Source: a virus
Strand: one strand, 5' to 3'
IMG/VR virus record: IMGVR_UViG_3300042319_000531
Coordinates: 1 to 25,229 of that record
DNA: 25,229 nt
Positions 2,743 through 23,876 of the stretch are shown here, piece after piece. Under the pieces are notes generated by a model. It ran no database searches. It was not told where the DNA came from and worked only from the letters and a program-made list of their open reading frames with translations. A program made the position numbers and the translations under genes. Each line of letters begins with the position of its first letter. The stretch's first letter is position 1.

Positions 2743-3993
2743 TTAGAATGATAATTTAACTTTTATTAATACTTCCTTATCAAAAGATTTAACAATTGGT
2801 TGAGAAGTTTTAGCTACTGCAATCATTTCGTTTGAATCGTTTAATAATCCAATAGTTGTTATAAATGTTTGAGGGTCAGTATTGAATGTTGATTCAACAA
2901 AAGTACCATCAGTATTTACATATGTTGGGTTATTAGAATAGTTAAATTCTCTATTTGTTGCTCTTACAAAGAAATGCTGTGTAGATACATTTTCAGTTCT
3001 TCTAGCTTGGAAATCGGAAATTACTCCATTATATCCAGTTTTGATTGATGATAATAATCTATAATGATTAAATTGTTCAGATGTTTGTATAGCACTACCA
3101 CTCAAACTACCACTTATTACTTTACTTCCATCAGGAGTGTAAATTGTTTGATTAGGTATATCACCAACTTTAGAACCTATTGCTTTTGCGTTAAGAACTA
3201 TAATACCTCTATCTGCGTAGAATAAACCATATCCTTCCCCAGTTGTTGGGTCAGTAGCTTGTTGGAATTCAGCTTCGTTTTCAGTACCTAATTTTAAATC
3301 ACCTACACCTACTTTAAATACGTTACCACTTAATCCGTTAGTATCAGAGAATTTTTTACCACTATTATCAATAAATGTAAAAATACCAAAAGAACCTGAA
3401 AGTGGTATTGACCAGTTTCCAGCATCCATTTTTTCTCTATATCTACCTCTAGCTATATTAATAACATATATTCCGTTTGCATCAGTTGCTATTCCAGAAG
3501 CGTTATCAAATTGGAATTTAGTTGCAGTTGGGTCTAATAACATTGCTCTATATTGAGCGTATGTTGCTTTTGTAGACATCAACGCAGTATCATTATCTTG
3601 CAATGTCATAGAACCACTTCCATTAACGTGTCCATATGCTACTGCAAATTGAACTTCTGCAGATGAATTAAATAATGGATTTACATTGTAAGCGTTTACA
3701 TAATAGTAACCACTTTGTCTTTGAGTTTCAGTAGAAGATGTAAAAAAGCTTGTTAAAGAGCCCGAATCACCACTCCACAGTCCAGTTGTTACTATTTCTA
3801 CTTTTGCATTTACTTTATCAAATTCACCGAATCTTTTATAAACCCCAGTTGATATAGCTCCAGATGTTCCAATTTGTTGGCCTGCTGGTAAAACTGAGTT
3901 TAATAAAGATACCAATTGATTTGAATCCACCGTACCAGTGTTAGCCAATGCTGCTATCTGTGCGGTTATATTTGGGTCATTAATTAGTGCCAT
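2743..3993 (-). CDS. Virion structural protein (EFNYSxNP family)
   Basis: A 416-aa beta-rich tail protein of the kind seen near baseplate genes in marine T4-like phages. The N-terminal ~100 residues contain a helical start (NDPNITAQIAALAN) and then TGLWSGDSGSLTSFFTSS. The middle holds repeated SGS tracts (LSGSFGIF, SGSLSGSAIQTS). The C-terminal ~130 residues contain FYADRGIIVLNAK, NREFNYSNNPTYV and ITTIGLLNDSNEMIAVAK, shared with the 313-aa paralogue. There are no enzymatic motifs or cysteines. The ATG at 3993 follows an AT-only leader of about 19 nt after the 209-aa gene, so the two are likely co-transcribed. A strong terminator follows. Probable role: baseplate periphery or tail-fibre attachment. 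The family is recognised; the exact function is not. Confidence 0.75.
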   Translation of the reverse strand: MALINDPNITAQIAALANTGTVDSNQLVSLLNSVLPAGQQIGTSGAISTGVYKRFGEFDKVNAKVEIVTTGLWSGDSGSLTSFFTSSTETQRQSGYYYVNAYNVNPLFNSSAEVQFAVAYGHVNGSGSMTLQDNDTALMSTKATYAQYRAMLLDPTATKFQFDNASGIATDANGIYVINIARGRYREKMDAGNWSIPLSGSFGIFTFIDNSGKKFSDTNGLSGNVFKVGVGDLKLGTENEAEFQQATDPTTGEGYGLFYADRGIIVLNAKAIGSKVGDIPNQTIYTPDGSKVISGSLSGSAIQTSEQFNHYRLLSSIKTGYNGVISDFQARRTENVSTQHFFVRATNREFNYSNNPTYVNTDGTFVESTFNTDPQTFITTIGLLNDSNEMIAVAKTSQPIVKSFDKEVLIKVKLSF

Positions 3994-4012
3994 TTTTTAT
4001 ATATATTTTTTA

Positions 4013-4642
4013 TTATACTGTTGGTTTGTAAATTACAGTTACCGGTATTGTTTGTGAACCTCCTGTTTCATTACCATAAACAGTCAACGTTGTTGAAATA
4101 TCAATTGTTAAGCTTGGGTTTGGAGTAAATCTAAACATTCTACCACTAACTACTTGTGCAGTTGTTGTAATTTCTTCCCCTAAGAATACAGGAACAGTAC
4201 CAGTACCATTTGCTCCTTGAGTTACAGTTATTGTACCAGCTCTTTGGTCTGCTAATACCATTGTGTATCCAGCATTTACGTTTCCAGCAGGATTAGTTGT
4301 TGGTTCTAATGGAACACCACCTTCTGATTGATTTACACTAATTTGAGGATATCCCAATCTTACAGTTGGGATTTGAGTAGTTCCTTTTGGAAGGGTTACT
4401 AACTTATATCTTAATACTTGAGTCTCATCAGGAGATGCTTCCGTTACAGGAATAGCTCTGATTGCTGAATCGTAATAAGCTGAACCTTTCGGGTGTGCTG
4501 GTTCATAAAGCGTATAGTCAATCTCATCATCACCCAAAGCAAACTTTGTAATGTTTAATGATTGACCGGATGCTAATTTTTGTCTTCCTTTTTTGGTAAG
4601 AATTGCATCTACTGTAATTTCTGTGTTATCTAAATATGCCAT
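4013..4642 (-). CDS. Phage structural protein (DAILTKKGRQKLA family)
   Basis: A 209-aa protein whose first 45 residues carry a motif recurrent in tail and fibre genes of T4-like phages: YLDNTEITVDAILTKKGR followed by LNITKFALGDDEIDYTLY. The rest is beta-rich and poor in charged residues, with many Thr and Val residues, and ends in strands that look like an immunoglobulin-like or fibre-shaft domain (ITVTQGANGTGTVPVFLGEE; IDISTTLTVYGNETGG). It has no cysteine, signal peptide or catalytic motif. It sits between the 1774-aa mosaic and the 416-aa protein, and follows an ATATTTATANA element 24 nt upstream of its ATG. Most likely it is a tail or fibre-associated virion protein; a role in attaching fibres to the wedge is inference. 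Confidence 0.7.
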   Translation of the reverse strand: MAYLDNTEITVDAILTKKGRQKLASGQSLNITKFALGDDEIDYTLYEPAHPKGSAYYDSAIRAIPVTEASPDETQVLRYKLVTLPKGTTQIPTVRLGYPQISVNQSEGGVPLEPTTNPAGNVNAGYTMVLADQRAGTITVTQGANGTGTVPVFLGEEITTTAQVVSGRMFRFTPNPSLTIDISTTLTVYGNETGGSQTIPVTVIYKPTV

Positions 4643-15503: not shown

Positions 15504-15926
15504 TCAAATGTTAAATGATACTGTGTTTAATTCAGGACTATTCCTTACATTAAATGATATCGTAATACCAACTGTATTTCTATCTTTGTTATCGTTTGAT
15601 TGATTTACGTTTATTTGCTGAACAACTATATAAGGTAACCAATTTTCCAATGAATTTGTTATGGTTTCTTCAATTTTTTCAGATAGAGTATCATCATTAA
15701 AATCAAATAACAATTCTTGAAGTCCACTACCAAAATTAGGTTGCATTATTCTTTCACCTTTTTTTGTAAGTAATAGATTCTTTATATTAGATTTAGCTTG
15801 TTCAAAAGTTGTGAAAGACTGATTAAATGCAGTATTACCTATTTGAATAGGTAAAGTTATACCTATTGCATGGTCTTCATACTTCTTAGTGTCTTGAACA
15901 AGCTTCTGCCCTAATACAATTGCCAT
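15504..15926 (-). CDS. 25: Baseplate wedge protein gp25 (lysozyme-like fold)
   Basis: gp25 family proteins clamp gp6 to the sheath-initiating end of the baseplate; despite the family name they are structural. This 140-aa protein has the usual size and motif order: GITLPIQIGNTAFNQSFTTFEQAKSNIKNLLLTKKGERIMQPNFGSGLQELLFD (split here for description at residues ~22-75), then a helix (LSEKIEETITNSLENWLPY) and closing strands (GITISFNV). The family's usual EPRFG-like core appears as QPNFGSGL, a mild variation. The ATG at 15926 shares its A with the stop codon of the 166-aa gene (TAATG). gp6 follows 12 nt downstream, the standard order. Confidence 0.92.
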   Translation of the reverse strand: MAIVLGQKLVQDTKKYEDHAIGITLPIQIGNTAFNQSFTTFEQAKSNIKNLLLTKKGERIMQPNFGSGLQELLFDFNDDTLSEKIEETITNSLENWLPYIVVQQINVNQSNDNKDRNTVGITISFNVRNSPELNTVSFNI

Positions 15927-21943: not shown

Positions 21944-22759
21944 TTAAACTGGGATTACTTCTATTGTAATCTTAGGTTGATATCCCTCAGGCAGTTGTCT
22001 ATTAATACCTTTAAATTCGTTTACTTTGTTCTTAAAGTAAGTTATTTGTAATACCTTATCAGTTAGGTTCATTACAGTTTGAGATGAAGTAGACATCTCC
22101 TTTGTATCTCTTTTCATATTCAATTGAGGCTTAGTTGGAAAGTATTCTTTTCTCATAGCCTGTGCTATTGCTTTCCAATCTTCTACTTTATCAACTGATT
22201 TTTCAGCTGATATCTTTCTCATTTTTGAACTTAGATATTTCTCACCATGTGTGTATCCAGCATCGGTGAACATATGTCCGTGATTTGTTCTAACAACCGG
22301 TGATTCGGAGTTTTGAAGTTTAACATCCGGCTTATGCTTTGATGTAGTTTCAATACTAACCATATGTTTTGGTGATGATACAAATGTATGACCCTTCAAA
22401 GATAATCCACTCTTACCTTTATATTGTAGTGCTGCTCTTACTGCATCCATTAGGGTAGGTTGCTTAATGATGTTTCTCATCTTATCACCATCAGGTCCTG
22501 GCTTTCCAGCTTTCTTTACAAGCTTAGCCTCAGCCTCATCGTGTCCAACTAATAGTGCTGCGTTTACAACACCAATTCCGTTTTCATTTAAACCCTCACT
22601 CCAATCAGTTATTAAATCATGTAGATATGCAACTTCCACACCATCGATGATAGTATGTACAATTTCTAAAGAAGGATTATAAGCTCTATCTCTATTCTTA
22701 GCTAATATAAATTTATCCTTAATTTCTTTAGATACAATGATACACTCTGAAAGTTTCAT
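21944..22759 (-). CDS. Ntn-hydrolase-fold amidase/acyltransferase (linear amide C-N hydrolase-like)
   Basis: A 271-aa protein with the pattern of the cysteine Ntn-hydrolases that include penicillin-V acylase and isopenicillin-N acyltransferase-like enzymes, which hydrolyse or transfer amide-linked acyl groups. Key elements: Cys6 as presumed nucleophile, ILAKNRDRAY (18-27), the strand pair EIVHTIIDGVEVAYLHD, GLNENGIGVVNAAL (56-69), RTNHGHMFTDAGYTHG (147-162) with Asn149 as likely oxyanion residue, and STSSQTVMNL (223-232). These enzymes become active when a cut exposes the nucleophile as the first residue. Here only MKLSE precedes it, and L-S-E resembles a prohead-protease site. The ATG directly follows an in-frame TAA of the 281-aa gene. 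The substrate is unknown; host acyl-homoserine-lactone, lipid or peptide amides are only possibilities. Fold fairly sure, chemistry not. Confidence 0.72.
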   Translation of the reverse strand: MKLSECIIVSKEIKDKFILAKNRDRAYNPSLEIVHTIIDGVEVAYLHDLITDWSEGLNENGIGVVNAALLVGHDEAEAKLVKKAGKPGPDGDKMRNIIKQPTLMDAVRAALQYKGKSGLSLKGHTFVSSPKHMVSIETTSKHKPDVKLQNSESPVVRTNHGHMFTDAGYTHGEKYLSSKMRKISAEKSVDKVEDWKAIAQAMRKEYFPTKPQLNMKRDTKEMSTSSQTVMNLTDKVLQITYFKNKVNEFKGINRQLPEGYQPKITIEVIPV

Positions 22760-23605
22760 TTAATTAATATAGCAGTTTAGTTCGTATTCATTTTGTCCAC
22801 CATATAAACTTCTAGTCTTAGAACCATCTTGGGCTCTTTTATAAGTTCCCATACCATAGACTTGAATATGTAACATTTTCTTTTGAGGTTTACCATTTTT
22901 AGTTAGTTCAATAGAAAATCTATTTGTTTTACCGTCCGATGGTTTTTTGGGGCCCATGCCTATTTTTCTAAATGAATCATCATCATCAATTTCATATCCT
23001 TTTTTCTCTGCATATGCTTTAGCTGCTTGAATTGCCGATGTATATGTGTAATGGTATACTGGGTAATCTGATTTTGCTTCCGTTACTGATTCTTTTACAA
23101 ACTTTCCATCTTTATCAGATACATAATAAGCAATCATATTATATGAACCACCTCTTTCCTTTTCAAGTTTTTCTACTGCTTTTTTAGCATCTTTATATGA
23201 TGAATAAGAATCTTTAAAAACTCCCGTACCTTGTCCTCTACCTTTATTATATCCTACATGATACAATCCTTCGTTTACTGATTCGTTTGTTGATACAAAT
23301 AATCTTACTGAAAGAATTACATCCTTACCAATATTTAAACTTCTTACTTTATGTTTTTCTAAATCGTAAGCCGGATTAAGTACAGTTGCTTTTGCAATTA
23401 CACCATCTTTAATAAAGTGTGGTTGCAATCCAGAATAGTTATCATCTCTAAACATAAAAACATCTTTAGGAGAATCCTTTGATATTTTAATTATCTTTTT
23501 TAAACCTTCTTTACCAACAAAACAACCACCTTCGCATTTAGTTCCACCATAGGTTTTACCTTTTTGCAATTTTACTTCGTTTATTATATCTTTTAACTTT
23601 ATCAT
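22760..23605 (-). CDS. Putative head-targeted multi-domain protein with prohead-protease-like sites
   Basis: A 281-aa protein with no named family. The N-terminus MIKLKDIINE/V resembles the capsid-targeting peptides of T4 internal proteins (MKTYQEFIxE/A). Two further ESVxE sequences occur: ESVNE/G at 108-112 and ESVTE/A at 172-176. They divide the chain into three segments of about 102, 64 and 105 residues. Segment 1 has a Cys-containing GGTKCEGGCFVGKEG and a mixed beta region. Segment 2 (GLYHVGYNKGRGQGTGVF, a Lys-rich helix, NMIAYYVSDKDGKFV) looks like a small alpha/beta domain. Segment 3 ends in GKTNRFSIELTKNGKP, KKMLHIQVYGMGTYK and NEYELNCYIN. It lies one base after the 89-aa gene, which has a similar N-terminus. 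Head packaging and processing are inference; it may equally be an uncleaved cytoplasmic protein. Confidence 0.65.
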   Translation of the reverse strand: MIKLKDIINEVKLQKGKTYGGTKCEGGCFVGKEGLKKIIKISKDSPKDVFMFRDDNYSGLQPHFIKDGVIAKATVLNPAYDLEKHKVRSLNIGKDVILSVRLFVSTNESVNEGLYHVGYNKGRGQGTGVFKDSYSSYKDAKKAVEKLEKERGGSYNMIAYYVSDKDGKFVKESVTEAKSDYPVYHYTYTSAIQAAKAYAEKKGYEIDDDDSFRKIGMGPKKPSDGKTNRFSIELTKNGKPQKKMLHIQVYGMGTYKRAQDGSKTRSLYGGQNEYELNCYIN

Positions 23606-23606
23606 A

Positions 23607-23876
23607 TTAAAATGCTATTGAAATGTAATCACCATCAGCTTCTACCCAACGAATTTTTAAAGATAATAACTTTTTTAAATCATCAGCTTCAAATCTATAA
23701 TTACCATGACCACCTATTGCTTTTATATCAACAATAAATCCGTGTATTCCTTCGTATATAGAATCAACCTTTCCACCAATTATCTTTTCAAAAGCTTGAA
23801 CTTGCTTTTGTTGAGTTGGCTTTAAATCTTTAAACGTTATTTCAGATGCTTCGTTTAGTTGTGATAATTTTATCAT
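23607..23876 (-). CDS. Small protein with head-targeting-like N-terminus
   Basis: An 89-aa protein with no named family. It begins MIKLSQLNE/A, very similar to the next gene's MIKLKDIINE/V, with L-N-E followed by Ala, which fits the (I/L)xE consensus of T4-type prohead proteases. The rest is a compact alpha/beta fold: a helix (LKPTQQKQVQAFEKIIGG), strands (KVDSIYEGIHGFIVDIKAIGGHG), a helix (FEADDLKKLLSL) and strands (KIRWVEADGDYISIAF). There are no cysteines or catalytic motifs. One-base gaps separate it from both neighbours, so the three genes form one tight unit. It could be a small internal head protein or a DNA-binding or regulatory protein; both are speculative. Confidence 0.62.
   Translation of the reverse strand: MIKLSQLNEASEITFKDLKPTQQKQVQAFEKIIGGKVDSIYEGIHGFIVDIKAIGGHGNYRFEADDLKKLLSLKIRWVEADGDYISIAF

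Follow-up and report, generated by a model that had tools for sequence, protein, structure and literature searches.

Prediction of an Ntn-hydrolase with a masked nucleophile

How might a phage keep an enzyme silent in the cell that makes it and have it ready in the next cell? The question is raised by a gene near one end of a 25,229-base contig, a fragment from a virus record (hereafter the window, numbered from its first letter). This gene (21944..22759, minus strand) codes for a protein of 271 aa, MKLSECIIVSKE..., in which Cys6 (22742..22744) follows the pentapeptide MKLSE (22745..22759). An earlier note on this DNA had taken Cys6 for the nucleophile of an Ntn-hydrolase and the L-S-E before it for a prohead protease site. 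On the sequence evidence, the window is part of the tail and baseplate module of a T4-like myovirus, where it is placed by a gp25-like baseplate wedge gene (15504..15926, minus strand) with matches in T4-like phages. Two lysis-type enzymes, GH19 and VanY, are encoded downstream of the target gene, and a SegE-type GIY-YIG endonuclease gene lies within the structural module (1085-1495; PF19835, 90.9 bits). A PADLOC search returned no match.

Searches with the protein itself gave nothing above threshold in Pfam, PF03417 (AAT) included, and in NCBIfam a match to C45_proenzyme (NF040521; E=3e-5, 23.6 bits) under the cut-off of 85. The latter model is matched by 24 of 41 diverse relatives (best 3.1e-11), and the PF03417 cut-off of 23.2 bits is passed by the relatives L385 (39.6), L362 (38.6), L396 (24.6), and L349 (24.3). 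Since the target lies under the family cut-offs and these relatives above them, its tie to the C45/AAT family runs through the relatives rather than directly. Sequence searches of the PDB likewise returned no real match, and the relationship emerged instead from a fold search with an AlphaFold2 model built from 40 sequences (pLDDT 85, pTM 0.87). The top Foldseek matches in the PDB were isopenicillin-N acyltransferase (AT; 2x1c/2x1d), with which the target shares 12-13% identity, and the structural-genomics protein CV2077, followed by bile salt hydrolase and penicillin V acylase.

In AT, catalysis involves Cys103, Asn119, Asp121, Asn246, and Arg268 (PMC13044924). The spacing of these residues recurs in the target, all on the minus strand, as Cys6, Asn22 and Asp24 of an Asn22-Arg23-Asp24 stretch (22688..22696; Cys+16 and Cys+18), Asn159 in an RTNH motif (22283..22285), and Arg181 (22217..22219), which stands 22 residues past Asn159 as Arg268 does past Asn246. 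These five positions are invariant in 103/103 sequences, and this invariance together with the AT-like spacing argues for Cys6 as the nucleophile. In the model, residues 1-4 have pLDDT below 50 and strand 1 spans residues 7-13 with Cys6 just before it, so that the Ntn fold with its nucleophile at the start of strand 1, the hallmark of the superfamily, is present. Far from lying away from the active site, Cys6 occupies the register of AT Cys103. Judged by register and modeled fold, Cys6 is thus the Ntn nucleophile and the product a cysteine Ntn-hydrolase of the C45/AAT type. The chemistry to be expected from the fold is amide hydrolysis or acyl transfer, with which the label of amidase given in the earlier note is compatible.

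Conservation of the junction before the cysteine

The start of the protein is fixed by its 5' context (att aat taa ATG aaa ctt tca gag tgt): an in-frame TAA abuts the ATG, so the protein must begin MKLSEC and the predicted propeptide is exactly MKLSE. The earlier note had read it in the same way. In T4, gp21 cleaves after L/I-x-E, trimming N-terminal peptides off packaged proteins (PMC9026906; PMC9958956), and a site of this type predicts that the junction be held constant among homologues. We therefore collected relatives by patterns that leave out the N-terminus, taking as start codon the ATG nearest the cysteine, and obtained 100 distinct proteins. A scan of viral contigs with the homologue from Chryseobacterium phage MA9V-1 alone found no relatives, and the diverse ones were reached through an alignment headed by that protein. 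Two scans of 85,000 genomes found no cellular relatives, using short peptide patterns that divergent ones could escape.

The N-termini of the 100 relatives are of two kinds without a third: 93 have a propeptide of 4-12 residues ending (I/L)xE↓C (the arrow marks the predicted cut), and seven begin Met-Cys with no alternative start upstream. Among the former are MKLSE, MKLTE, MKLLE, MKLKE, MKITE, MINE, MLNE, MIKE, MAKILQE, MKRILTE, MKKIINE, MNKLIRE, and MPQLFDRIILGE. P1 is Glu in 93/93 with both GAG and GAA in use, P3 is Leu in 75 and Ile in 18 with eight codons, and P2 is any of nine residues (S, N, K, T, L, G, I, Q, R). The only two cultured relatives, from the Chryseobacterium phages MA9V-1 and MA9V-2 (43% identity), carry EFLNE↓C and AFINE↓C; in the MA9V-1 protein, the predicted mature N-terminus CVIAAK... 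starts at Cys13, with MTSANNNEFLNE on the precursor side.

One might argue that the triplet reflects chance or the shared ancestry of a short N-terminus that is never cut, the protein being a homologue without activity or simply a cytoplasmic enzyme. In these proteomes, [IL]xE is indeed common, being present in about 6-19% of 12-residue windows, and because of this a plain count of N-terminal [IL]xE is weakly informative, the weight being carried by the conservation test and by the extended tag described below. On a tree of the mature part only, the propeptide changes in length 13 times and at P2 17 times, yet P1 shows no residue change against nine codon changes, and all nine changes at P3 are between Ile and Leu. 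None of the 250 gap-free triplets of the mature protein has an (I/L)xE-like conservation pattern. The catalytic residues are invariant, and without removal of the propeptide an Ntn enzyme would lack a free nucleophile. We consider this explanation highly implausible: in the sequences compared, conservation of the triplet before the cysteine exceeds chance, and the claim that L-S-E is a gp21-type site gains by it.

On the tree, the Met-Cys form requires four changes, of which well-supported branches force at least three. Its repeated gain or loss indicates that the working enzyme starts at this cysteine, and the two classes may be seen as interchangeable N-terminal states with Cys first in both. 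A Met-Cys N-terminus can be opened by methionine aminopeptidase. Met removal as the way to expose the cysteine suits that class and is impossible for MKLSE↓C. Three Met-Cys members (G022, G023, and G028) occur in phages that encode the gp21-type protease Peptidase_S77, which suggests that the enzyme can function without packaging or cleavage; these three proteins may represent its cytoplasmic versions.

Prohead proteases and head genes in the relatives

The earlier note had asked for a gp21-like protease in the same genome. No S77 gene is present in the window, which is explained by the window being a fragment; the protease is found in the relatives. It is encoded on 4 of the first 18 relative contigs, themselves fragments, on 10 of 18 further ones, on two of the deeper set described below, and in both MA9V-1 and MA9V-2. 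The longer contigs mostly encode it, several contigs lack it, and many that have it also carry a Gp23-type capsid protein. In one relative (L241), the Ntn gene adjoins the scaffold and major capsid protein (MCP) genes close to the S77 protease, and in three others (L208, L209, and L236), it is near TerL. In the cultured phages, the Ntn sites FLNE↓C and FINE↓C resemble the sites FINE↓A and FLNE↓S in the MCP of MA9V-1, whose virion proteins are reported by SDS-PAGE only (PMC10537231). The annotated prohead protease gene of that phage (MA9V1_151; L108 26501-30544) codes for 1347 aa, of which only a part near the N-terminus forms the S77 domain.

Targeting-like tags on neighboring genes

The two genes upstream of the target also begin with peptides of this kind, an observation of the earlier note that we confirm. 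The adjacent gene (22760..23605, minus strand; 281 aa, no confident family match in profile searches) starts with MIKLKDIINE↓V, and the next (23607..23876, minus strand; 89 aa) with MIKLSQLNE↓A, for which homologues in three relatives (G001, G005, and G013) have MIKLTQLNE↓A or MIKLTKLNE↓A. Similar MIKLxxLLxE-like tags start many small genes in the relatives' genomes. On three large contigs, N-terminal L..[LI][LI].E tags were observed 8, 9, and 9 times against 0.5, 1.2, and 0.6 expected (~8- to 16-fold), an enrichment that is illustrative because the pattern was picked after viewing the N-termini of these genomes. Several small genes flanking 3777-4589 in another relative (L239) have N-termini like MKLSELRQLIREEVRRVINE↓A, possibly a longer targeting tag.

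The capsid targeting sequence of T4 is ~10 residues long, with upstream determinants at IPIII residues 4 and 7, and the N-terminal peptides removed by gp21 measure 7-65 residues (PMC9026906). The tags of the neighboring genes fit such determinants. In contrast, propeptides of 4-5 residues such as MINE and MKLSE fall under the shortest T4 example and are too short to hold them. As these lack most of the T4 targeting peptide, targeting may reside elsewhere in the protein.

Polyproteins and the exceptions among deeper relatives

Scanning DNA for a pattern built on the NRDR motif recovered deeper relatives, several of which carry the Ntn domain within a long protein or at its front. A broader pattern scan found VDE↓C, IHE↓C, IEE↓C, IDE↓C, LHE↓C, and LKE↓C before the Ntn domain in larger proteins. 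Four polyproteins of 1152-1592 aa (L360:4224-9002, L393:6423-11096, L399:571-4542, and L351:4076-7534) combine it with a nucleotidyltransferase and a ligase-like domain, some also with a kinase, and have [ILV]xE at most domain starts; the ligase-like label is tentative, resting on an EKLDGQN motif. Thus, L360 (1592 aa) reads zeta-toxin/AAA_33-type kinase, KVDE↓C Ntn, CTP_transf-like nucleotidyltransferase, and ligase-like domain, and L399 reads nucleotidyltransferase, SIHE↓C Ntn, and ligase-like domain. In a further case (L347:1-2271), the order is QVDE↓C, Ntn domain, VVAE↓S, and CCA-adding/poly(A) polymerase domain. Counted as distinct cases over all loci fetched, [ILV]xE stands just before the domain start in 17/19 ligase-like domains (GGAxGHM), 6/6 kinases, and 9/9 nucleotidyltransferases. 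A separate 958-aa protein (L398:4854-7730) joins a PAP2 phosphatase, the Ntn domain, and a topoisomerase I catalytic core.

These boundaries bear on the view that the propeptide is lost by autoproteolysis, as in isopenicillin-N acyltransferase and the C45 proenzymes, with Glu merely preferred and packaging not required. The precedent is a real one, AT cleaving itself at Gly102-Cys103 (PMC2692852), and self-cleavage would also work for Ntn domains deep inside larger proteins. However, it leaves unexplained a strict Ile or Leu at P3 next to a free P2, the Met-Cys form in close relatives, the similar tags on neighboring genes, and the same [ILV]xE boundary at domains without Ntn chemistry. As the chemistry of the kinase, nucleotidyltransferase, and ligase-like domains does not allow them to process themselves, a trans-acting protease is the simplest common cause. 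We accordingly regard autoproteolysis as unlikely and favor cleavage by the prohead protease.

Exceptions occur at the periphery of the family. One deep member has MEE↓C, and five distant ones have [KR]x[AS]↓C (KDA↓C, KEA↓C, RLA↓C, KQS↓C, and KQA↓C). The contigs of these five, one of them 375 kb and any of them possibly incomplete, show no S77, Gp23, or S78, and no HK97-type protease (PF04586) was found in ten contigs tested, these included. The lack of S77 there agrees with the Glu site going together with an S77 protease. A gamma-glutamyl cyclotransferase-like domain (GGACT/ChaC) is fused to the Ntn domain in two of the [KR]x[AS]↓C members and encoded by a neighboring gene in one (L385:789-2213, L362:2884-4293, and L349:831-2299), an association that offers no more than a hint of the substrate.

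A proposed capsid-activated enzyme

We propose that the gene product is made as an inactive precursor of a C45/AAT-like cysteine Ntn-amidase, which would enter the prohead. There the phage's own S77 protease, once active, would cut after Leu3-Ser4-Glu5 and release MKLSE, freeing Cys6 as the N-terminal nucleophile, so that one cut would serve both as head-protein maturation and as enzyme switch-on. The mature enzyme would then probably travel in the virion head and be ejected with the DNA. We hold this account of a head-packaged, protease-activated precursor to be quite probable as a whole; the fold, the catalytic set, the conserved junction, and a protease gene in relatives come from sequence and model, and the packaging, cleavage, and injection, their timing, and the substrate are inferred.

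A variant in which the protein is likewise cut and packaged, but works within the capsid or serves a structural purpose instead of being injected, would sit well with the position of the Ntn gene beside head or tail structural genes in most relatives examined. The kinase, nucleotidyltransferase, CCA-adding, and ligase-like domains found with the Ntn domain suggest instead metabolic or repair enzymes useful in a newly infected cell, and we judge a purely capsid-internal or structural role improbable. These companions suggest, at low confidence, early repair or counter-defence. More broadly, we lean slightly toward a role of the prohead protease as general maturase of packaged enzymes (kinase, Ntn-amidase, nucleotidyltransferase, and ligase-like), which would be released in the head before injection, whether each is made as a tagged protein of its own or all within one polyprotein; the Ntn-amidase would then be a zymogen whose activation requires a capsid.

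The known role of prohead proteases is the removal of scaffold and targeting peptides. If the proposal is right, the same cut creates a catalytic residue and ties enzyme activation to capsid maturation, a natural case of an enzyme that is silent in the cell that makes it and reaches the next one in active form. In addition, (I/L)xE before a domain could serve as a simple rule for spotting packaged enzymes in large phages. Among open-licence papers we found none that pairs a prohead protease with an Ntn hydrolase, which is weak evidence of novelty.

Comparison with known systems

The proposed enzyme brings together features of several known systems. With the T4 internal head proteins (IPI-III and Alt, with their gp21-cut targeting sequences), it shares a short N-terminal peptide ending L/I-x-E, an S77 protease in the same phages, and, in several relatives, a location near head genes. 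Those proteins, however, are not Ntn-hydrolases, their cleavage is not described as making a catalytic residue, and the propeptide of the target is shorter. With the C45/AAT acyltransferases such as isopenicillin-N acyltransferase (2x1c/2x1d), it has in common the predicted fold, five catalytic residues and their local spacing, and an N-terminal Cys after propeptide loss, whereas AT cleaves itself at Gly-Cys and the target, a smaller protein, has Glu-Cys in a gp21-type motif. The C59 penicillin V acylases and bile salt hydrolases also share the Ntn fold and N-terminal Cys, but the structural match is weaker and the motif spacing follows AT. Finally, the polyproteins of the deeper relatives recall in their layout the polyvalent proteins of phage P1 and others (DdrB), in which several enzyme domains are packaged and processed in one polypeptide (PMC5512222). 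There an embedded metallopeptidase has been proposed as the processor (PMC5512222), whereas the cuts predicted here fit a separate prohead protease.
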